Shown piece by piece: positions 37,574-48,303 of a stretch of DNA of 64,000 nucleotides; position 1 is the first letter of the stretch, and the number at the start of each line of letters is the position of its first letter. The DNA comes from Myxococcota bacterium. Its GTDB lineage: Bacteria > Myxococcota_A > Bradymonadia > UBA7976 > UBA1532. The position numbers and the translations under genes were made by a program. Where the stretch lies: NCBI GenBank assembly GCA_963169045.1, contig CAUJDF010000091.1, positions 124,001 to 188,000 on the forward strand. Reading direction: 5' to 3'. The notes beneath the pieces are model-generated. The model worked only from the letters and a program-made list of their open reading frames with translations. It ran no database searches and was not told the DNA's origin.

Positions 37574-40369
37574 TCACCCCTGGACGACGGACCGGGCGCG
37601 CGACAGGCGGGTGCGCGGCCGGGCCTCGCCTTCGCCGTCGACGTCGACGCCGAGCCAGACCACGTTGGGCAGGGGCGCGGGGAGGCGCTGCCGCAGGCCG
37701 AGCTGCACCTCGAACGCGCCCTTGTCGACGTCGACCCCGTCGAGGGTCTCCGTCCAGACGGGGGCGTTCGCGCCCTCCTCGGTGTAGAGGGCGAACGTCA
37801 TCGGCACGCGGCCCGACCAGATCTCGGGGCCCTCGAGCAGCACGGCCTCGAAGCGGAGCGCCGCCGGTGGCGGGCCGAGCGGTGCGGCGGGCGCGGCGGC
37901 CGCCTCGGGCACGTCGGCGCCCTGCGCCGGCGGACCGGCCTCTTCGAGGTCGACCGCGTCGACGTGCTCGTCGCCCTCGTCGGACGCCTCGGCGCCGCCG
38001 CCGAACAGCTTGCTGCGCAGGCGCGAGAGCAGGCCGCCGCCCTTCGGCTTGTCGAAGCGGCTCTTCTGCGGCCGGGCCGGCGCCTTCTCCTCCTCGGGCG
38101 GGGGCTCCTCGACGACCTCCTCCTTCACCGGGGCGATCTGCTCGAGCACCTGCAGCAGATCGAAGGCGTCGGCCTCGGTCCAGTCGGGATCGTGCGGCGA
38201 GCGCGGCAGCTTCGGCTCGCCGTAGGGCAGGCCCTTGACGGCGCCCCACAAGCGCGCCGCCACGTCCTTCACCCCGCCCCTGGCGTGCTGGGACGCGCCG
38301 TAGATGAGCTTGCGCGCGTTGCGGTGGTTGAGGTGGTAGAGCACCTCGAGCGCCGCCAGCTGCAGCCCCTGGTCGTCCTTGAACGGCTTGAACTTGGCGA
38401 CGAGCGCCGCCTCGTCGCTGGCGACGCTGCCGAGCATCGCGTTGAAGAACGCGAAGTACCGCTCGTGGTCGATGCGCGCGAGGTTGAGCGCCAGCGCGCG
38501 CTTCTCGCCGTCGGTCATGTGCGAGACCGGCGTCTGGCGCAGGTGGTTGACGAGGTAGAGGCCGAGCTTGCGGTCGGCGCTCCAGCCGATGCGCTCCATG
38601 ACCTGGACGCGGACGTCGGGGTCCTTGTCCTTGAGGTGGGCCAGCAGGATGCGGCGCAGGTCCTCGGTGTCGTCGAACGGCATCGTCCGCACGACCGAGC
38701 CGCGGACCGTCGCGTTCGGGTGCGCGCTGATCTTCTGGAGGAAGAGCAGCGCGTCGTTGTCCATGCCGGGCAGCAGCGAGACGATCGCCTCGACGAGCGG
38801 CGACTCGATCTCGCTTCGGCCCCAGAAGTACACGTCGTCGCCGAGGATGTGGCGCGACAGCGCCTGGCGGGCCGAGGGCGGCAGCGGGCCGGCCTCCATC
38901 AGCGTCGAGACGACGCGCATCAGGCCGGCGGCCCGCTCGTCGGCGGCCTTGATGCCGTGGGCCTGGGCCAGCGTCTCCTTGAGGGCGGCGCCGGTGTTGT
39001 CCTCGTCCTTGGCGACGAGCAGCGCATCGAGCGCCGACGCGTACGCCTGGCCCACGTCGGCCGTCTTGCACGCGCGCGCGGCGGCGAGGGCCTCGGACGC
39101 CGCGGCGCGGGCGTCGTCGTCGCGGCCGGCGGCGGCCAGCGTGCGCGTGGCCGCCGCCAGCGCGCGCGCCCGATAGAACGCCTCGGGGATCTTCCGCGCC
39201 TCGCGCAGGCCCTCGAGCGGGTCCATCGAGGCGAGCGTCTTCTCGTCGAAGCTGGCGCCGAGGTGGGCCGCCTGCAGGAAGTCGATGTCGCCGCCGACCA
39301 TCGAAATGCGCGAGAAGAACTCCTTGCCGCGCACCTTGCGGACCATGTCGAGGGCGCGCGCGAGGCGGGCCAGCTCGGACTCGCCGTCCTGGTCGGCGTC
39401 CTCGACCTGGGCGAGGAAGTCCTCGTCGGCGCTGGCCGCGTCCGGCGCGGGCGGCGGCTCCTCCTCGTGCACGGCGCCGCCGAGCGCGCGCTCGCGCTCC
39501 ACCTGCCGCAGGACGAGCTGGTACTCGTCGAACAGGCTGCGCGTGACGGTGAGGAGCGGCGTCTCGTCGAAGCGCGCCAGCAGGATCGAGACGACGTCGA
39601 GCTCCGGCGGGGCCTCGAGCGCCTCGTGCATCTCGGGCGCGTACAGCAGCAGCTGCCGCATCGCCTTCGCCTTGATGGCGTCGCCGCGCGTCCGCACGTA
39701 CTCGCGCCCGGAGAGCACGGGATCGGCGCCGCGGCGACGCATCTCGCGGGCGAGGCGCGCGTAGAAGAGCTTGACCTCCCACGAGACGGGGACGCGCCGG
39801 CCGATCTCGTCGGCGTAGAACAGGCAGTCGACGTTCGGGAAGTGGCCGCGGTCGAGCGCCTTGCGGAACTTGACCTCCTCCTCGGCGGCCGAGTCGCTGA
39901 TGCGCTCGCTCATCAGCTTGCAGAAACGCAGGAGCTCGGCGGCGTCGATCGTCGTCAGCAGCCGGACGGCGAGCAGGTTGCGGTGCTCGAAGGTCGCGGC
40001 GGCGCGGTTGATCATGGCCATCATGCCGTACTTGCGGCGGACGACCTTGAGCGCGTTGCGGGGATCGAGGAAGGCGTCGGTGCCCTCGCGCGCGACGAGC
40101 AGCTCCTGCAACGAGATGGGCTGCTCGTGGTACTCGATCGCCCAGACGTCCTCGACGCCGGTGGACAGCAGGTTGACGAACGTGATGCTCTGGCGCGCGC
40201 CGAACACCGACTTCATCAACGGGAAGACGTTCTCCCGCTCGGCGGCGGCCTCGGGGTGCTCCGGGATCCACGTCTTGAGGAGGCTGACGCCGGCCTTGCG
40301 GAGCTCCGCCTTCTCCTTCGCTTCCTCGGAGCGCCAGTCGTCGGCGCCGGTGAGGATGTCCGTCGACAT
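37574..40369 (-). CDS. HEAT-repeat protein with C-terminal tail-fibre-type beta module
   Basis: The 931 residues start MSTDILTGADDWRSEEAKEK. Residues 30-330 are helical with no clear family. Residues 380-740 form HEAT-like helical pairs (ISAHPNATVRGSVVRTMP, LKDKDPDVRVQVMERIGW, LAALEVLYHLNHRNARKL). A Pro/Glu-rich linker follows, and the last ~90 residues hold a beta module of the style DGVDVDKGAFEVQLGLRQRL then VVWLGVDVDGEGEARPRTRL, familiar from secreted and tail-fibre-like proteins. No signal peptide is seen, so it is probably cytoplasmic. It is divergent from a kynureninase-like gene with only 21 bases between start codons. Confidence 0.78.
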   Translation of the reverse strand: MSTDILTGADDWRSEEAKEKAELRKAGVSLLKTWIPEHPEAAAERENVFPLMKSVFGARQSITFVNLLSTGVEDVWAIEYHEQPISLQELLVAREGTDAFLDPRNALKVVRRKYGMMAMINRAAATFEHRNLLAVRLLTTIDAAELLRFCKLMSERISDSAAEEEVKFRKALDRGHFPNVDCLFYADEIGRRVPVSWEVKLFYARLAREMRRRGADPVLSGREYVRTRGDAIKAKAMRQLLLYAPEMHEALEAPPELDVVSILLARFDETPLLTVTRSLFDEYQLVLRQVERERALGGAVHEEEPPPAPDAASADEDFLAQVEDADQDGESELARLARALDMVRKVRGKEFFSRISMVGGDIDFLQAAHLGASFDEKTLASMDPLEGLREARKIPEAFYRARALAAATRTLAAAGRDDDARAAASEALAAARACKTADVGQAYASALDALLVAKDEDNTGAALKETLAQAHGIKAADERAAGLMRVVSTLMEAGPLPPSARQALSRHILGDDVYFWGRSEIESPLVEAIVSLLPGMDNDALLFLQKISAHPNATVRGSVVRTMPFDDTEDLRRILLAHLKDKDPDVRVQVMERIGWSADRKLGLYLVNHLRQTPVSHMTDGEKRALALNLARIDHERYFAFFNAMLGSVASDEAALVAKFKPFKDDQGLQLAALEVLYHLNHRNARKLIYGASQHARGGVKDVAARLWGAVKGLPYGEPKLPRSPHDPDWTEADAFDLLQVLEQIAPVKEEVVEEPPPEEEKAPARPQKSRFDKPKGGGLLSRLRSKLFGGGAEASDEGDEHVDAVDLEEAGPPAQGADVPEAAAAPAAPLGPPPAALRFEAVLLEGPEIWSGRVPMTFALYTEEGANAPVWTETLDGVDVDKGAFEVQLGLRQRLPAPLPNVVWLGVDVDGEGEARPRTRLSRARSVVQG

Positions 40370-40390
40370 CGTCGCTCCCCCGGGAGGGCC
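40370..40390. promoter_or_regulatory. Shared palindromic ribosome-binding region between divergent starts
   Basis: CTCCCCCGGGAG lies between two start codons that face away from each other. On the plus strand GGGAGGG serves the kynureninase-like ATG at 40391; on the minus strand GGGGGAG serves the HEAT-protein ATG at 40369. The region is too short to hold two promoters, so each gene's promoter must lie inside the other's coding sequence. Confidence 0.7.
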
Positions 40391-41530
40391 ATGAAATCCC
40401 ACTATACTGCATTTGTCCGCCCCGGCCGCATTCTGCTCACGGGGCACTCCCACCAGGCGTGGCCCGACGCGGCGCGCGACGGCCAGCTCGAGGCGTTCGA
40501 GGACGCGGCGGCCTGCGTCGACGACAAGTGGGCGCGGGCGGGGGAGGCGGCGAACGCGGTGCGCGCGGCGGTGGCGGCGCGGATCGGCGGTCGCGCCGAG
40601 GACGTGGCGCTCGCGGGCAGCACCCACGAGCTCGTGACGCGCTTCCTCTCGGCGCTCGACTGGACGCGCCGGCGCCACCTCGTGACCACCGCCGGCGAAT
40701 TCCACAGCATGGCGCGCCAGCTCGACCGCCTCGCCGAGGCCGGCGTCGAGGTCACGCGCGTGGCCGTCGATCCGCTCGACACGCTGGCGGACCGCCTCGC
40801 CGCCGCGGTGCGCGACGACACGGCGGCGCTGCTCGCCTCGACCGTGCTCTTCCGCACGTCGGCGGTGGTCCCCGGCCTCGAGATGACGGTGCGGACGGCG
40901 CGCGCCGCCGGTGCCGAGGTGCTGCTCGACGCGTACCACGCCTTCAACGTGCTTCCGTTTCGGATCGAGGACTTCGGGGCCGACGTGTTCGTGACCGCCG
41001 GCGGCTACAAGTACGCGCAGTGGGGCGAGGGGAACTGCTGGCTGCACGTGCCGGCAGGCTGCGCGCTGCGCCCCGTCTACACCGGATGGTTCGCCGACTA
41101 CGCGGCGCTCGGCGCCCGCCGGGAGGGCGCGGTGGGTTACGGCCCGTCCGGCGCCGAGCGCTTCGCCGGCAGCACCTACGACCCGACGAGCCACTACCGC
41201 GCCCGCGCGGTCATCCGCTTCTTCGACGCCCAGGATCTGACGGTCGAGCGGCTGCGGGCGATCTCGCTGCGGCAGACGGCGCGTCTCCGGTCGAGCCTGG
41301 CGCACCTCGACTTCGCCACGCCGGACGGCGACGCGGGGCGCGGCGGCTTCCTCGCGATCCGCCTGCCCGACGCCGCGGGCGCCGTGGCGCGCCTGCGCGC
41401 GCGCGGTGTCTTCACCGACGCCCGCGACGGCCTCCTGCGCCTCGGGCCGGCCCCCTATCTCGACGACGACGACCTGGACGCGGCCGCCCGGCACGTCGCC
41501 GAGATTGCGGCGGAATCGCGGCAGGGATAG
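40391..41530 (+). CDS. Kynureninase-like PLP enzyme (class V aminotransferase fold)
   Basis: The 379 residues begin MKSHYTAFVRPGRILLTGHS. LLTGHSHQAWPDAARDG, the FHSMARQLDRLAEAGVEV region, EVLLDAYHAFNVLPF (PLP-pairing Asp180, with His183) and TAGGYKYAQWGEG (Lys207 in the Schiff-base position) follow the kynureninase order. Kynureninases cleave kynurenine to anthranilate and alanine; related enzymes act on other amino acids, so the exact substrate is not certain. No other tryptophan-degradation gene is in the window. It shares a 21-base start region with a divergent HEAT gene and is followed after 35 bases by a second HEAT gene. Confidence 0.8.
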   Translation: MKSHYTAFVRPGRILLTGHSHQAWPDAARDGQLEAFEDAAACVDDKWARAGEAANAVRAAVAARIGGRAEDVALAGSTHELVTRFLSALDWTRRRHLVTTAGEFHSMARQLDRLAEAGVEVTRVAVDPLDTLADRLAAAVRDDTAALLASTVLFRTSAVVPGLEMTVRTARAAGAEVLLDAYHAFNVLPFRIEDFGADVFVTAGGYKYAQWGEGNCWLHVPAGCALRPVYTGWFADYAALGARREGAVGYGPSGAERFAGSTYDPTSHYRARAVIRFFDAQDLTVERLRAISLRQTARLRSSLAHLDFATPDGDAGRGGFLAIRLPDAAGAVARLRARGVFTDARDGLLRLGPAPYLDDDDLDAAARHVAEIAAESRQG

Positions 41531-41565
41531 AAAGATACAGAAGGACCGTACTCGCGGAGCGCACC

Positions 41566-44292
41566 GTGGCCGAAGCGCCGGGCAAACCGGGACCGAACGA
41601 GGAGGGCCTCGGCAAGAAGATCCGAGACGTCCTCAAGCTCCTGCGCGACGCCGTGCTGCAGGCCACCGAGCCCGAGGCGCTCCAGAAGACCATCGCCGAC
41701 ATCGCCCGCCTGCTGCGCGCCGCCACCGCCGAGCACGGCGACGTCGAGCTCGCGATCTCGACCAACCGCATCACCGTCGGCGACGACGTCGCCTACAAGT
41801 CCGACGCGCGCGAGGGCAACATCGCCTTCGATCTGTTCCGGCAGGGCCTGCGTCGCCTGTCCTTCAAGCCCGGCGTGACCGACGAGGAGGCCGACGTCTT
41901 CGTGCGGCGGTTCCTCGACTGCCGCGCGGCGGAGGCCCAGGACGAGGACTTCGTCGCCACCCTGTGGCGGGAGGAGCTGCCCTCGGTGAAGTACGTCGCC
42001 ATCGACGGGTTCACCGAGAAGATCTTCATGTCCGACGAGCGCTTCGTGCGCTCGTTCCGCGCGGTGATCGACGACGTCATGCCCGGCCTCGTCGAGATGT
42101 CCGAGGAGGACGTCGGCGACCGCGAGCCGCGCAAGGGCGCGATCCGGGACGACGCCTCTGTCCTCGCCCGCGTCGACGACGCGATGCGCGACTTCGCGGG
42201 CACCCTCGAGGTGGCCGCCGTCGAGGTGCAGGGCCGCTTCCACGTCTTCGGCAGCGTCGCCGCGAGCGGCGAGCACCTGCTGCAGCTGCTCGGCCGCATC
42301 GCCGTCAAGCACCCGTCGCCGCTGCCGGGGGAGGAGCTGGTCGAGGCCATCGTCGCCGTGCTGGCGCTCATGCTGCGCGACAAGGCGTGGAGCGCCTTCG
42401 CCGACGCCTCGCGGACGCTCTTGACGCTGGCGGACGCCGCCGACGACTTCCCCGAGGCGGTGCGGCCGGCGCTGAAGGCGGTGCGCCGCGCCGCCGTCGG
42501 CCGCGAGGTGGTGCAGGCGCTCGCGTCGCACCTCGATCCCGAGAAGACCGACTTCACGGCCTGGGCGCGCTGGCACCTCGTGAAGGCGGGCGAGATCACC
42601 GCGCCCGACCTGCTCAAGCTGATCAACGTCGTCGAGTGGCCGCCGGGCGTCGACTTCCTCAAGGACCTGCTGCGCCGGCAGGGCACCTCGTCGCTCGATC
42701 CGTGGGCGGAGCGGCTGAAGGACGACGACCCGCAGGTCGTGCTGGAGGTGCTCGACGTCATCTTGAGCAGCGAGCTCGGCGCGCAGGCGCGGCCGCTGCT
42801 GATCGAGACGCTGCGCAACCCGGCGCCCGAGGTGCGGGCGCGCGCCGTCGACGGCCTGAGCGGCGCCTACGACCTGCAGCTGCGCGAGGCGCTGCTGCCG
42901 CTGCTGCGCGATCCGGCGGCGACGGTCCGCCGCAGCGTGCTCGAGCGCTTCGCCGGCGCCAACGACCGCTCGGTGGCGCCCTACGTCGCCAACACCGTCA
43001 AGTCGCCCGACTTCGAGCTCTTCGACGAGGACGAGCAGCGCGCCTACTTCGAGGCGCTGGCGCGGCTCGGCGGCGAGCGCTTCCTCGACGTGTTCCGCGC
43101 GCGCCTGCGGCTCGAGGGCGGCGCCAACAAGCTGGCCAAGCTGCTCAAGCGCGCCACCGACGCCGTGCACGACGATCCGGTGCGGCGCGCGGCGATCTCC
43201 GGCCTGGCGACGATGAACGTGCCGGCGGCGCTGGCGCTCGTGCGCGAGGTGCGCGACCGCGCCGACCACGACCTCGCCGCGCACTGTGAGGTGGCGCTCC
43301 GGCTGGCGCAGCGCGGCGGGTCCGAGCCGCGGCAGGCGGGCGCCGCGACGGCGGGCGACAAGCCGAAGGGCGCGACGAAGCCCGCGGCGATCGACGACAT
43401 CGAGGCCGGCCGCGAGCGCATGGGCGACCGGCGGCTGTTCGAGCCCGCGATGCTCAAGGTCACGCCGCCGCCGCGCCCCAAGCCGCGCCCGGTGGACGTG
43501 GCGGTGGCCGTCGCCGCGCCGGCGGCCGCGCCGGTCGCCGCGCCGGTCGAGTCGGTGCCGCTGAGCGAGCTGCCGTTGCTCGGCGAGGGCGAGGTCTTCT
43601 TGCCGACCGACGAGCGCCGGCTGAAGGCGGAGCCGTCGATCAGCACGGGCCCGAAGTTCCGCCTGACGAGCCCGCGCGCGACGCTCGTCGGCGTTCCGCA
43701 GGCGGACGCGCCCCAAGTCGAGCTCGTCGCCGCGCCGACGCCGTTGCCGTCGCGTCCGGCGCGCATCGTCGAGCGGGCGGCGATCCCGACGGCGGGCGCC
43801 GACTACACGCACAACCCCGAAGCGAGCCTCGAGGACCTGCTCTCGAGCTACCTCACCGACGTCGACGAGCTCGTGACCGAGACGCCGCCCCGCGGCGACG
43901 ACGAGGAGGACGACGATCCCCGCGTCGACGCGTCCGCCCTCGGGCGCGGCCGATCGCGCATCGAGGCGTTCGCCCTCGGGGACGAGCCGCCGATCGTCGA
44001 CGTGTCGGCGGAGGAGCTGCTCCTCGAGGAGCTGCCCCCGCTCGAGCCGCCGCCCCTCGAGCCGCCGCCGCTGCCGCGCGCCGCGACGCCGCCGCCGGCT
44101 CCGCGCCCGCAGACCGGCGCGCTGCCCCCGCTGTCGACGCCACCGCCCCGGCCGCCCGCGGCGCCGCCGGCCCCCCCCGCGGCGGCGCCTCCGCCCGCGG
44201 CGCCGCCGGCCCCCGCCGCGGCGGCACCGGCGAACACGGAGGACGTCGACGATCTGCTCAAGGCCTTCCTCGATCTCGACCTGGGAGAGTGA
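41566..44292 (+). CDS. HEAT-repeat protein with Pro-rich tail
   Basis: The GTG at 41566 has GGAG seven bases before it and gives 908 residues beginning MAEAPGKPGPNEEGLGKKIR. Residues 60-118 form a small mixed module (ISTNRITVGDDVAYKSDARE, then FRQGLRRLSFKPGVT). Residues 200-560 are HEAT-like helical repeats (RNPAPEVRARAVDGLSGAYD, RDPAATVRRSVLERFAGAND). A long Pro/Ala/Glu tail from about 600 is disordered and ends VDDLLKAFLDLDLGE, a possible short helix for binding a partner. No signal peptide is present. The next gene starts three bases after its stop. The layout suggests a scaffold; no activity is assigned. Confidence 0.82.
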   Translation: MAEAPGKPGPNEEGLGKKIRDVLKLLRDAVLQATEPEALQKTIADIARLLRAATAEHGDVELAISTNRITVGDDVAYKSDAREGNIAFDLFRQGLRRLSFKPGVTDEEADVFVRRFLDCRAAEAQDEDFVATLWREELPSVKYVAIDGFTEKIFMSDERFVRSFRAVIDDVMPGLVEMSEEDVGDREPRKGAIRDDASVLARVDDAMRDFAGTLEVAAVEVQGRFHVFGSVAASGEHLLQLLGRIAVKHPSPLPGEELVEAIVAVLALMLRDKAWSAFADASRTLLTLADAADDFPEAVRPALKAVRRAAVGREVVQALASHLDPEKTDFTAWARWHLVKAGEITAPDLLKLINVVEWPPGVDFLKDLLRRQGTSSLDPWAERLKDDDPQVVLEVLDVILSSELGAQARPLLIETLRNPAPEVRARAVDGLSGAYDLQLREALLPLLRDPAATVRRSVLERFAGANDRSVAPYVANTVKSPDFELFDEDEQRAYFEALARLGGERFLDVFRARLRLEGGANKLAKLLKRATDAVHDDPVRRAAISGLATMNVPAALALVREVRDRADHDLAAHCEVALRLAQRGGSEPRQAGAATAGDKPKGATKPAAIDDIEAGRERMGDRRLFEPAMLKVTPPPRPKPRPVDVAVAVAAPAAAPVAAPVESVPLSELPLLGEGEVFLPTDERRLKAEPSISTGPKFRLTSPRATLVGVPQADAPQVELVAAPTPLPSRPARIVERAAIPTAGADYTHNPEASLEDLLSSYLTDVDELVTETPPRGDDEEDDDPRVDASALGRGRSRIEAFALGDEPPIVDVSAEELLLEELPPLEPPPLEPPPLPRAATPPPAPRPQTGALPPLSTPPPRPPAAPPAPPAAAPPPAAPPAPAAAAPANTEDVDDLLKAFLDLDLGE

Positions 44293-44295
44293 CGC

Positions 44296-45777
44296 GTGCA
44301 GGCCGGCGCCAAGAAGGAAGATCTCCACGCGCGCATCCAGGGCGCGGGACGCAACCTGATCGTCTACGTCTTCTCGCTGCTGAAGACGGGCGAGATCCAC
44401 GACCTCAACAACGAGGCCTACATCCGGCCATGCGACAAGCTGGCCGAGTCCCTCGACGTCCTGTTGAAGATCGAGCGGCAGGCGATCACCGTCGTCGTGC
44501 ACGAAGGCATCGCCCAGGTGAACAGCCACGCCCTGTGGCTCGACCAGAACACCGTCGAGCAGGCCCAGGAGCTCGAAGGCCAGCTCGCGCGTCGCGAGGC
44601 GGGCGGCATCATCTTCAGCGCGATGCCGACGCAGGACGAGATGCGTCGGTTTTTCTTTCATTTCGCGCGGTTCCGTGCTCCGGCCGACGCGAAGGACCAG
44701 ATGACGGCGCTGCAGGCGCACCTCGTCCAGGACGGCATCCAGAACCTGAAGCTCGCGCCGCAGCCGCTCCGCCTCGAGGGCGTCGGCGTCGGCGTGCGCG
44801 GCGTGGCCTCGCTGTGGCACTACGCGAAGGGCGCCGCCGGCATGGAGGAGATCCTGTCGAAGGCGCCGCCGGACGTGAAGTCGGCGCGCCGCATCGGTCA
44901 GGAGCTCGTCGACGCGCTCGCCACCGAGCAAGACCTGGTCTGCGCGCTGCCGCTCCTCGGCACGCACGCCGACACGCCGGCGCGCCGCGCGGTCGACGTG
45001 GCCGTGCTCGTCGGCGCCACCGCCCGCGGCCTCGGCCTGTCGGCGATCCGCTGCGCCGACCTCGCCAGCGCGGCGCTGCTCGCCGACGCCGCCGGCGTCT
45101 ACGAGAACCCCGATCCGGCCGAGTTCACGGTGCCCGAGCTCGCCGGCGTGCTCGCGGTGCGGCAGCTGCTCGAGGCCAGCAAGCTGACGGGGGAGCACCT
45201 GCGCCGCGTCGTCGTCGGCGTCGAGCACGCGCTCGGACCGTCGAAGGCCGGCCCGCCCTACCTCGTCGCCGCGCCGCGCCTGTCGATCGACGGCCAGCTC
45301 GTCGCGCTCGCCGAGGCGTGGCTCGACCTCGTGCGCGGCACGGACCAGCGGCCGGCGATCACGCCGCTCGAAGCGGGCCTCTCGCTGCTCAAGGATCCGC
45401 CGCGACAGGTCGACGCCAACCTCGCGCGCGTCTTCGTGGCGTCGATCGGCCTGCTCCCGGTCGGCACCGTCGTCCAGCTGCAGAACGAGGACGTCGGTGT
45501 GGTCTCCGAGGTGGACCACCTGCGCGGCCGCACGGTCTACAACGCCGATCCCGCGCCGGTCCTGCGGCCACGCAGGATCGTCGTCGAGCGCATGCGCACG
45601 CCCCAGGGCAAGGCCGTCCCCGAGCGCAAGGCGCGCGTCGTGCTCGGCGAGGAGTCGCCCGACGGTGGCGCGTGGACGGTGCGCCGCACGCTCGATCCGG
45701 CCCCCTGGCGCGACCTGGTCATCCGTGGTCTGATCCGCAGGCCGTCCACCGTCGCCGCGCAGATGGGCCTCCGATGA
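44296..45777 (+). CDS. Degenerate HD-GYP-family protein
   Basis: The 493 residues (GTG start, GGGAG upstream) end in a region that follows HD-GYP phosphodiesterases: near 224 HADTPARRAVDVAVLVGATA replaces the usual H-D...T...H-S-xx-V pattern; AALLADAAGVYE at 260 stands where A-L-L-H-D-I-G is expected; and near 433 VASIGLLPVGTVVQLQNEDV matches the closing PVGT-V-L motif. The metal ligands of an active HD domain are missing, so it is probably a binding or regulatory protein rather than a c-di-GMP phosphodiesterase. Residues 62-125 resemble the N-terminal module of the preceding HEAT protein. YqgE begins inside its stop (ATGA). Confidence 0.75.
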   Translation: MQAGAKKEDLHARIQGAGRNLIVYVFSLLKTGEIHDLNNEAYIRPCDKLAESLDVLLKIERQAITVVVHEGIAQVNSHALWLDQNTVEQAQELEGQLARREAGGIIFSAMPTQDEMRRFFFHFARFRAPADAKDQMTALQAHLVQDGIQNLKLAPQPLRLEGVGVGVRGVASLWHYAKGAAGMEEILSKAPPDVKSARRIGQELVDALATEQDLVCALPLLGTHADTPARRAVDVAVLVGATARGLGLSAIRCADLASAALLADAAGVYENPDPAEFTVPELAGVLAVRQLLEASKLTGEHLRRVVVGVEHALGPSKAGPPYLVAAPRLSIDGQLVALAEAWLDLVRGTDQRPAITPLEAGLSLLKDPPRQVDANLARVFVASIGLLPVGTVVQLQNEDVGVVSEVDHLRGRTVYNADPAPVLRPRRIVVERMRTPQGKAVPERKARVVLGEESPDGGAWTVRRTLDPAPWRDLVIRGLIRRPSTVAAQMGLR

Positions 45778-46328
45778 AGTTCACCACCGCTCCGGGCATC
45801 CTGATCGCCATGCCGTCGCTGCACGATCCGAACTTCGTGCGCTCCGTCGTCGTGATGATCGACCACACCCCCGAGGGCGCGGTCGGCCTGGTGGTGAACC
45901 AGCCGATGCCGCACACGTGCGCGGACATCACGCGCGAGCTGGGCGTCGCGTGGTCGGGGCCGGCCGACGCGCACCTGCGCCGCGGCGGGCCCGTCGAGCC
46001 GCAGTCGCTCTGGATGCTGCACGACGACGGCTGGGGCTTCGACGAGACGACCCGCGTCGCGTCGGGCATCGCCGTGAGCCGCAGCCGCGAGGCGCTCGAG
46101 CGCATGTGCGGCGGCGAGGAGCGCCACCTCCTGCTGTTCGTCGGCTGCGCGAGCTGGGGCCCCGGCCAGCTCGACGCCGAGATCGCCACCGGCGCCTGGA
46201 TCACGAGCGACGTCGCGGCGCCGATGGTCTTCGACTGGCCGCCCCACGAGATCTGGGAGCGCGCCCTCCGCCGGATGGGCATCGATCCCGCGCACCTCGT
46301 CGAGTCCGAGCGCGGCAGCATTCATTGA
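45774..46328 (+). CDS. yqgE: YqgE/AlgH family protein
   Basis: The 184 residues show the family pattern: GILIAMPSLHDPNFVRSVVV, the VGLVVNQPM segment, HLRRGGPVEPQSLWMLH and LLLFVGCASWGPGQLDAEIA. AlgH/YqgE proteins are cytoplasmic, of unsettled function, and have been linked to alginate regulation and RNA or nucleotide metabolism. The start overlaps the preceding stop as ATGA at 45774-45777, so it is translationally coupled to the degenerate HD-GYP gene, which suggests a shared process. Confidence 0.93.
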   Translation: MKFTTAPGILIAMPSLHDPNFVRSVVVMIDHTPEGAVGLVVNQPMPHTCADITRELGVAWSGPADAHLRRGGPVEPQSLWMLHDDGWGFDETTRVASGIAVSRSREALERMCGGEERHLLLFVGCASWGPGQLDAEIATGAWITSDVAAPMVFDWPPHEIWERALRRMGIDPAHLVESERGSIH

Positions 46329-46340
46329 CGCCCGGCGCGC

Positions 46341-46958
46341 TCAGTCGCGCCGCCAGAGGCCCCACGCGACGCCCGCCGCCACGCCCGCCAGCACCGGCAC
46401 GAGGGCGTGCCAGAGCAACACGTGCGACGCCGTCTCGAGGCGGCAGTGCAGCTGCAAGGGCACGACGGCGACGAGGCCGGCGCCGACCCCGAGCAGGAGG
46501 CCGGTGGGCGCGTGGCGGCGCAGCAGCCCCCGACCGAGCAACGCGGCGGCGAGCGCGAGGGCCGCCGCGAGCAGGCCGCCGCTGCCCAGGCATGCCATCC
46601 CGTGCCGCCAGAAGCCTTCGGCGGTCGCCCGCCCGTCCGCCTGGACGAACGGCACGAGCAGACCCGGCGTGACGAGGAGCGCGGCGGCGACTACGGCCCG
46701 CAGCCTGCGCCCGGCCGGCACCCGCAGCCCCAGCGCCAGCGCGAGCAGCGCCACGCCGCCCGCGAGCAGGGCCGCGAGCGCGCCCCACGCCACCGGCGCC
46801 CGCGACGCCGGCTCGAGCGCCACGAGGGCGGCCACCGGCGCCGCCGCCGCCGACGCGAGCGCCCACCACGCGCGGCGCCGGCGTCTCGCCAGTGCGCGCA
46901 GGTCGCCCTCCACGGTCGCGCGCAGCGCCGGCGGCGGGGCGAGCTCGTCGTTCACCAC
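46341..46958 (-). CDS. NrsF-like (DUF1109) anti-sigma factor, multi-pass
   Basis: The 205-residue protein has about six hydrophobic segments from residue 30 on and the late HC...SHVLLWHALVPVLAG signature of DUF1109/NrsF-type membrane anti-sigma factors. It starts with a GTG right after the TAG of the ECF sigma gene (46958/46959); a second GTG follows immediately and either may be used. By family, it would hold the sigma factor at the membrane until an envelope or metal signal arrives. Tight coupling with the sigma gene supports this. Confidence 0.8.
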   Translation of the reverse strand: MVNDELAPPPALRATVEGDLRALARRRRRAWWALASAAAAPVAALVALEPASRAPVAWGALAALLAGGVALLALALGLRVPAGRRLRAVVAAALLVTPGLLVPFVQADGRATAEGFWRHGMACLGSGGLLAAALALAAALLGRGLLRRHAPTGLLLGVGAGLVAVVPLQLHCRLETASHVLLWHALVPVLAGVAAGVAWGLWRRD

Positions 46959-47537
46959 CTACTCCCGTGGCCGGCCGAGCACGCCGGCGAGGGCCGCCCG
47001 CAGCCGCTCGTAGCCGCGATGGGCGCGCACGCGCGCGGCGCCCTCCTGAATGCCGAGCGCCTCCGCCACCTGCGCGAGCGGGACGCCGTCCAGCTTGTGC
47101 ATCGCGACGACGGCGCGCTGGCCCTCGGGCAGATCGGCGACCGCCGCGCGCACCGCGGCCACGAGCGCGGACGCGTCCCCGTCGTCGTCGGCGGGCGGCG
47201 GGGGCGGCTCGGGCAGCTCCCCTTCGCGGGTGAGCCGGTCGGTGGCCGCCCCGCGGCGGCGCAGCGCGTCGATCGACAGCCGCCGCGCGATGGTGAGCAC
47301 CCACGGACCGACGGGCGCGCCGGGCCGGTAGCGATGCCGCGCGTGGTGCACGCGCAGGAACGTCTCCTGGGTGAGGTCCGAGGCGAGCTGCGGATCGCCG
47401 ACCCAGCGGCGCTGGCACGCCTGCACGACGGGCGCGAGCGCGCGCCAGACCTCGTCGAACGCGCGCGCGTCGCCGTCGGCGTAGCGCTCCATCGCGTCGG
47501 CGAGGCGGCGGTCCCCATGCGCGGACGATACGGGCAT
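46959..47537 (-). CDS. ECF RNA polymerase sigma factor
   Basis: The 192 residues contain sigma region 2 (QLASDLTQETFLRVHHARHR and GPWVLTIARRLSIDALRRRG) and region 4 (PEGQRAVVAMHKLDGVPLAQ and VAEALGIQEGAARVRAHRGY), joined by an acidic/proline linker of about 35 residues. It is followed with no gap by the DUF1109/NrsF-like anti-sigma gene and preceded by a PilZ gene 25 bases upstream on the same strand. The group and target promoters are unknown. Confidence 0.9.
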   Translation of the reverse strand: MPVSSAHGDRRLADAMERYADGDARAFDEVWRALAPVVQACQRRWVGDPQLASDLTQETFLRVHHARHRYRPGAPVGPWVLTIARRLSIDALRRRGAATDRLTREGELPEPPPPPADDDGDASALVAAVRAAVADLPEGQRAVVAMHKLDGVPLAQVAEALGIQEGAARVRAHRGYERLRAALAGVLGRPRE

Positions 47538-47562
47538 GCGGGCCGTACGTTACCACCGGTGC

Positions 47563-48303
47563 TCAGCAGAAGGGCGCGTGCGCGTCCTCGTCGTCGACCG
47601 CCTCGACGATCTCGAAGGGCTCCGCGTCCTCGTCGTCGCCGGCGAGCGCGCGCTGCACGCGGTCGGCGAGCTCGTCGGACCACGAGACGAACTGCAGCCC
47701 CACGCGGAACCACGCGTCGCGCGCGACCACCGAGCGCACCTGCGCGGGGAGGCGCACCTTGCCGTCGCCGAAGTCGAGGTGCGCGGTGAGCACGCCGCCG
47801 ATCTCGAGGCCGGCGTCGCTGGGCACGGTCACGCCGAGGCCGCCGAGCGACACGTCGATGGCGCGCGCGGCGAGCAGCCCCTCGTCGGTCTCGAGCGTCA
47901 CGTCCGCGCCGAGCGCGCCGGCGAGGCGAGGCTGCTGGCGGCCGGGGTGCATCACCACCTCCCGCGGCTCGAACAGCCGAGCCACGACGCCGTCCGGCGT
48001 CAGCACGACGGCGCCGACCACCGCGCGGAAGCCGAAGAACTCGAGACCTCGCTGGTCGCTGACGGCCACGCGCTCGCCGGCGGCGACGGGCGACTGGCGG
48101 CCGGTGAAGCGCAGCCCGAAGGGGTGCACCACCTCGGCGACGAGCACCGCGCCCCCGTCGGTCGCCACGACGACCTCGCGCTCGCGGATCGCCTCGATCG
48201 CCCGGCGGATCGCCTTGGGATCGCGGGCGATCTCGGCGCCCCGGAGCTGGGTGAGGAAAGGGTCGAAGGATTCCGTCTGGTGCTGTAGGGCGACGCGCGA
48301 CAC
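47563..48303 (-). CDS. PilZ-domain protein (probable c-di-GMP receptor)
   Basis: I chose the GTG at 48303 because GGAGGT lies nine bases upstream; an in-frame GTG at 48336 would add 11 residues. The 246 residues have an N-terminal beta domain (AVLVAEVVHPFGLRFTGRQS), like the YcgR N-terminal region, and a C-terminal PilZ domain starting with R-QQP-R (an RxxxR motif) and DVSLGGLGV (the D-x-S-x-x-G motif). Both c-di-GMP-binding motifs are intact. It is the first gene of a minus-strand group with the ECF sigma and anti-sigma genes, which could connect second-messenger state to transcription, although co-regulation is inference. Confidence 0.82.
   Translation of the reverse strand: MSRVALQHQTESFDPFLTQLRGAEIARDPKAIRRAIEAIREREVVVATDGGAVLVAEVVHPFGLRFTGRQSPVAAGERVAVSDQRGLEFFGFRAVVGAVVLTPDGVVARLFEPREVVMHPGRQQPRLAGALGADVTLETDEGLLAARAIDVSLGGLGVTVPSDAGLEIGGVLTAHLDFGDGKVRLPAQVRSVVARDAWFRVGLQFVSWSDELADRVQRALAGDDEDAEPFEIVEAVDDEDAHAPFC

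Follow-up and report, generated by a model that had tools for sequence, protein, structure and literature searches.

Five adjacent genes, here called A to E, lie in a 64,000-nucleotide stretch of a Myxococcota genome (GTDB lineage Myxococcota_A; Bradymonadia; UBA7976; UBA1532), which we refer to as the window (contig CAUJDF010000091.1, positions 124,001 to 188,000; assembly GCA_963169045.1, 9.0 Mb in 109 contigs). They encode a HEAT protein (A), a kynureninase-like pyridoxal phosphate (PLP) enzyme (B), a second HEAT-repeat protein (C), a degenerate HD-GYP protein (D) and a YqgE/AlgH family protein (E). The core unit of this locus is the C-D pair, rather than the five-gene set. C and D are very probably partners, as judged from their phylum-wide adjacency, one gene fusion and homologous N-terminal domains, and we consider it somewhat probable that they constitute a conserved Myxococcota module, in which a non-catalytic scaffold complex would assemble via the shared N-domains.

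The pairing was established from the D side. A D profile matched 166 of 284 Myxococcota genomes, the weaker matches of which may be ordinary HD-GYPs. When loci were picked by D alone and sufficient DNA was present, C was found immediately upstream on the same strand at 59 of 61 loci (L numbers denote loci throughout). The two exceptions are L106, where the gene is cut at a contig edge, and L191, where C and D are fused into one 1182-codon frame. At least 114 of 150 listed D matches, in 86 genomes, are preceded by a same-strand C N-domain at a distance of 1.6-3.2 kb, and several of the unpaired matches are located at contig ends. A second C-D pair is present in nearly all genomes of the family; in the source genome it is a HEAT/HD-GYP pair on another contig (L121; G000 contig 58, ~378000-382400). 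Pairs of this type are followed in seven loci by a third conserved gene, of ~290-330 amino acids. No paper on a HEAT-HD-GYP pair in Myxococcota was found in the open-access full-text literature (subscription journals and preprints were outside the scope), which instead yielded HD-GYP reviews and work on cyclic dinucleotides in Myxococcus (PMC8177086, PMC8844925).

C and D are similar to each other over their first 110-140 residues. The N-domains of the two families align by HHalign with an E-value of 7.7e-13 (probability 97.8, 104 columns), and the homology was recovered separately inside (1.4e-10) and outside (2.8e-13) the class, compared with 0.27-0.33 for reversed sequences and 0.27-0.37 for the reversed and HD-region controls together. 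The relationship is missed with small subfamily alignments (E 1e-3 to 6e-2), becomes visible with pooled families, and was confirmed with larger sets and controls. The C and D proteins examined have no Pfam coverage of this domain. Within the orthologs of window D it is the best-conserved part of the protein, with a mean pairwise identity of 0.69 and 51 of 116 columns invariant.

Window D by itself has no match in Pfam or NCBIfam. Its derivation from HD-GYP proteins follows from the match of the family profile to HD-GYP chains in the PDB (3e-7 to 2e-4), from the presence of Pfam HD_5 in family members outside the class (2e-23 and 9e-27), and from the Foldseek ranking of a low-confidence model, in which Bdellovibrio Bd1817 came first (6e-4), then PA4781, with PmGH and DvhD also top-ranked. 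HD-GYP proteins bind metal through the motif H...HD...HH...D (PMC8177086), of which we read the H, HD, HH and D columns. At the first three of these window D has R, AD and HA, and past the HH position it reads GPSKAGPPYLV, with no GYP loop in the alignment. The preliminary description of this DNA had called D a catalytically dead HD-GYP; the loss of catalytic residues is confirmed, and with ligands and loop lost window D is predicted to be inactive as an HD-GYP phosphodiesterase. Among 67 family members, 11 keep all four columns, 18 keep none and the remainder are intermediate. Intact HD-GYPs, with H, HD, HH, D and the GYP loop, occur within the family (L179, L212, L178, L180), and the D of the second pair in the source genome retains H, HD and D and has lost HH. 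The full ligand set changed at least four times on a quick tree, whose long branches make both the placing of the window D clade and the number of losses rough. Among window D orthologs, pairwise identity at these former ligand positions is 0.07-0.39 against a mean of 0.58, with no consistent substitute, so the old pocket is not under visible selection. Constraint lies instead in the shared N-domain, the linker LAPQPLxLEGVGxGVRGV and the C-terminal part.

C scores 31.9 bits against Pfam HEAT_2 (1.7e-7; cut-off 27.7), and an AlphaFold2 (AF2) model of residues 1-585 (predicted local distance difference test, pLDDT, 70.7) forms an alpha-solenoid resembling alphaRep, importin and the scaffold of protein phosphatase 2A (PP2A) in Foldseek comparisons. 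The tail of C is Pro/Ala-rich and bears one to three copies of the motif [DES][DE][LV]Lxx[YF][LV], which shuffled tails produce at a rate of at most 0.002 per tail. In window C, in its orthologs at L141, L143, L145 and L146, and in the distant f7 partners L122 and L126 (~24% identical), one copy stands 13-14 residues before the C terminus. In one clade, with five checked loci (L185, L187, L188, L190 and L193), an intact Pkinase domain stands in-frame ahead of C (E 1e-36 to 1e-40), giving a protein that consists of a Hanks-type kinase, the N-domain and HEAT repeats. It is encoded upstream of a D that is likewise degenerate.

The mechanism that we propose builds on what was directly observed, namely the C-D pairing, the N-domain homology, the loss and drift of the active site, and the tail motif. 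C and D would be co-translated. Because their genes are adjacent, encode homologous domains, are kept together and were once fused, the two proteins may bind each other via their N-terminal alpha/beta domains to give a heteromer, in which the HEAT solenoid of C is a putative scaffold. D would be an HD-GYP-type cyclic-dinucleotide phosphodiesterase in sister lineages and probably also in the ancestor. In the window lineage the metal site has drifted and catalysis would be gone; D would persist there as a structural or allosteric component, its fold and N-domain being required by the complex. A short terminal DDLLxxYL docking motif in the disordered tail of C might recruit a client, and in some relatives a kinase is built into C. 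A broader proposal, which we put forward only tentatively, is a signalling hub of two subunits that spans the phylum: a HEAT protein (kinase-fused in some lineages) and an HD-GYP protein would dimerise via the shared, uncatalogued N-domain, the HD-GYP having repeatedly turned structural and the DDLLxxYL peptide serving for docking. HD-GYP proteins have been studied as enzymes, and the C-D pair names one specific partner for them; a pairing that outlives the active site in several lineages provides a natural experiment on the non-catalytic roles of the HD-GYP fold. The pair may also be a signalling module, in a phylum noted for the complexity of its behaviour.

Several observations weigh against the scaffold complex. 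That C binds D is what we infer; adjacency and one fusion point to functional linkage, not stoichiometry, and the fusion occurs in one genome only. AF2 modelled D poorly (pLDDT 57, with the N-domain mostly below 50), so the evidence for a shared N-domain fold is the sequence profiles. The tail motif is absent from the f6 partners and from the f1-paralog/second-pair partners, and so cannot be what the module does in general.

The preliminary description had considered plausible a regulatory complex at this locus, with two HEAT proteins as scaffolds and a dead HD-GYP that binds a ligand. We searched 58 related genomes (G numbers) for D, A, B and members of the YqgE family and compared the neighbourhoods. 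A single complex or pathway comprising A to E is very unlikely on this evidence. The complete order is present in G003 and G010, the arrangements in G005 and G011 are compatible with it across contig breaks, C-D-E is unbroken in every family genome with a window-type D and sufficient contig, and E directly follows D in 10 of 10 family genomes carrying a window-type D, but not elsewhere. Against this, G002 and G009 have no B at the locus, G008 and G012 carry A and B elsewhere, and G006 lacks A, so we reject the five genes as a conserved operon or complex. In a sister family (L117, L118), B immediately precedes YqgE with no C or D there, which suggests that B-E is the older adjacency and that C-D was later inserted or else lost. 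C-D units elsewhere in the phylum adjoin neither a PLP gene nor YqgE. Furthermore, w16, w17 and an alanine racemase, which flank the locus and have no plausible link to it, are retained nearby about equally often, and family-level gene order is therefore background. Thus, A, B and E are neighbours that are linked to C-D just within one family, and are not demonstrated parts of the module. Of the gene order first described, the C-D part is conserved phylum-wide, whereas the five-gene order is inconstant even within the family; likewise, of the two HEAT proteins assigned to the complex, C is supported as the partner of D and A is not.

Dead second-messenger enzymes that act as receptors are known, and D, having the HD-GYP fold, could bind cyclic di-GMP (c-di-GMP), cyclic GMP-AMP (cGAMP) or a metal in its old pocket and thereby switch a complex of two HEAT scaffolds. 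A PilZ gene 1.2 kb downstream (47563-48303) would fit such a role, but says little because synteny in the family keeps unrelated genes too. The ligand columns of D are among its least conserved and the GYP loop is not retained in the window lineage; the hypervariability of those columns speaks against the ligand binding originally proposed, insofar as it would use the old pocket, and we regard a receptor of this kind as unlikely. A ligand site on D outside the old pocket is possible. C and D might also be a unit in which D, rather than being a scaffold subunit, regulates or acts as a decoy for the second, HD-retaining pair (L121), whose presence in the same genome and in nearly all family genomes makes such cross-talk conceivable. 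The second D, however, has itself lost the HH pair, and its activity as an HD-GYP is therefore doubtful. In the tree the D proteins of the two pairs fall in different deep clades rather than being a recent duplication, and this reading also seems rather improbable. Finally, the lost active site could mean that D is decaying and functionless. The probability of this is close to nil, as it is contradicted by eight full-length orthologs with 51-62% identity and more than 100 invariant residues, by the retained D-E overlap, and by the shared N-domain being under the strongest constraint. The C-D scaffold complex accordingly remains the reading that we prefer.

All five open reading frames (ORFs) were verified at the positions given in Table 1, and the order A(-), B(+), C(+), D(+), E(+), the short gaps and the ATGA overlap of D and E in the preliminary description are correct. 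The genes are kept in related metagenome-assembled genomes at 44-65% identity and are thus not chance ORFs. C starts with GTG, 35 bases after B and with GGAG directly upstream, and is separated by 3 bases from D, whose start is preceded by GGGAGAG within the 3' end of C. A and B are divergent, with start codons 21 bases apart (40369-40391) and overlapping Shine-Dalgarno-like sequences, so that the promoter of each must sit within the coding region of the other; L113 has a gap of ~90 bases. A scan for sigma-70 promoters and terminators gave no signal exceeding shuffles.

Table 1. Features of the locus (positions in the window)
Feature	Position	Strand	Basis or remark
A, HEAT protein	37574-40369	-	ORF; HEAT_2 under cut-off; optional neighbour
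B, kynureninase-like fold-type-I PLP enzyme (predicted)	40391-41530	+	KYNU_C, Aminotran_5; optional neighbour
C, HEAT-repeat protein, 908 aa	41566-44292	+	ORF, HEAT_2, AF2 model; core of finding
C N-terminal alpha/beta domain	41620-42012	+	HHalign against D family; model order a-a-b-b-b-a-b-a
C tail motif copy 1, SLEDLLSSYL	43825-43854	+	repeated motif
C tail motif copy 2, DDLLKAFL, 14 residues before C terminus	44248-44271	+	position conserved
D, degenerate HD-GYP protein, 493 aa	44296-45777	+	family profile, intact relatives with HD_5, alignment; core of finding
D N-terminal domain	44338-44685	+	conservation, HHalign
HD-GYP-derived region of D	44866-45453	+	motif columns
D former ligand codon, H to R	44986-44988	+	motif column
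D former ligand codons, HD to AD	45082-45087	+	motif columns
D former ligand codons, HH to HA	45226-45231	+	motif columns
D former ligand codon D, variable in orthologs	45325-45327	+	motif column
E, YqgE/AlgH family protein	45774-46328	+	DUF179; ATGA overlap with D

A was found only within one family. It reaches 20.3 bits against HEAT_2 (7e-4), below the cut-off of 27.7, and its HEAT part resembles that of C (profile match 2.8e-12). Homology of its N-terminus to the C/D N-domain is unsupported (HHalign E ~1e-3, probability ~20%). Its C-terminal domain of ~95 residues (838-931; 37574-37858, minus strand), VPMTFALYTEEG...VWTETLDGV...WLGVDVDG, recurs at ~10 further sites in the genome and in many relatives at 30-49% identity; we take it to resemble a domain of surface-type proteins, an odd ending for a HEAT protein. 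B matches KYNU_C (8.8e-10) and Aminotran_5, both over the Pfam cut-off, and the kynureninase structure 1qz9 (2.3e-10), and the cofactor residues D180, Y206, K207, W233, T262 and R350 are conserved in 12 of 12 relatives. Against NCBIfam it matched no kynureninase equivalog, just cysteine-desulfurase-type models far below cut-off. By these sequence criteria B is a fold-type-I PLP enzyme nearest to kynureninase, for which kynureninase function is a prediction. E is a clear DUF179/AlgH protein (6.8e-41, 140 bits against a cut-off of 27). An anti-phage defence system was considered and rejected, as PADLOC gives no support: A, C, D and E have no matches to its models, and B matches DndA/SspA only, via the general cysteine-desulfurase fold. 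Adjoining YqgE on the minus strand (46341-48303) are genes for an NrsF-like protein and an extracytoplasmic function (ECF) sigma factor together with the PilZ gene; the NrsF/ECF pair was found again close to the locus in L112.

The D family is alike in fold, by profile and structure comparison, to HD-GYP phosphodiesterases such as PmGH (4mcw), PA4781 (4r8z), V-cGAP3 (5z7c) and Myxococcus xanthus PmxA, and some of its members likewise retain both H...HD...HH...D and a GYP loop, with HD_5 scores that exceed the cut-off. It differs from them in having its own N-domain and a near-obligate HEAT neighbour, and window D lacks the ligands tested. The best Foldseek match of D, Bd1817 (3tm8), is also an HD-GYP without the activity. 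It is an unconventional family member that is inactive on c-di-GMP and binds two irons, having lost just the GYP Tyr and the last Asp (PMC8177086), whereas window D has lost every ligand tested; no HEAT partner of Bd1817 is reported in the literature found. C has an alpha-solenoid similar to that of the PP2A A subunit, and a HEAT scaffold paired with a phosphohydrolase is the same idea, but this is an analogy only, the Foldseek similarity being generic to HEAT repeats. Although window C has no kinase domain, the module also touches the Hanks-type Ser/Thr kinases of Myxococcota, since at the five checked fusion loci C stands behind an intact Pkinase in a single protein.

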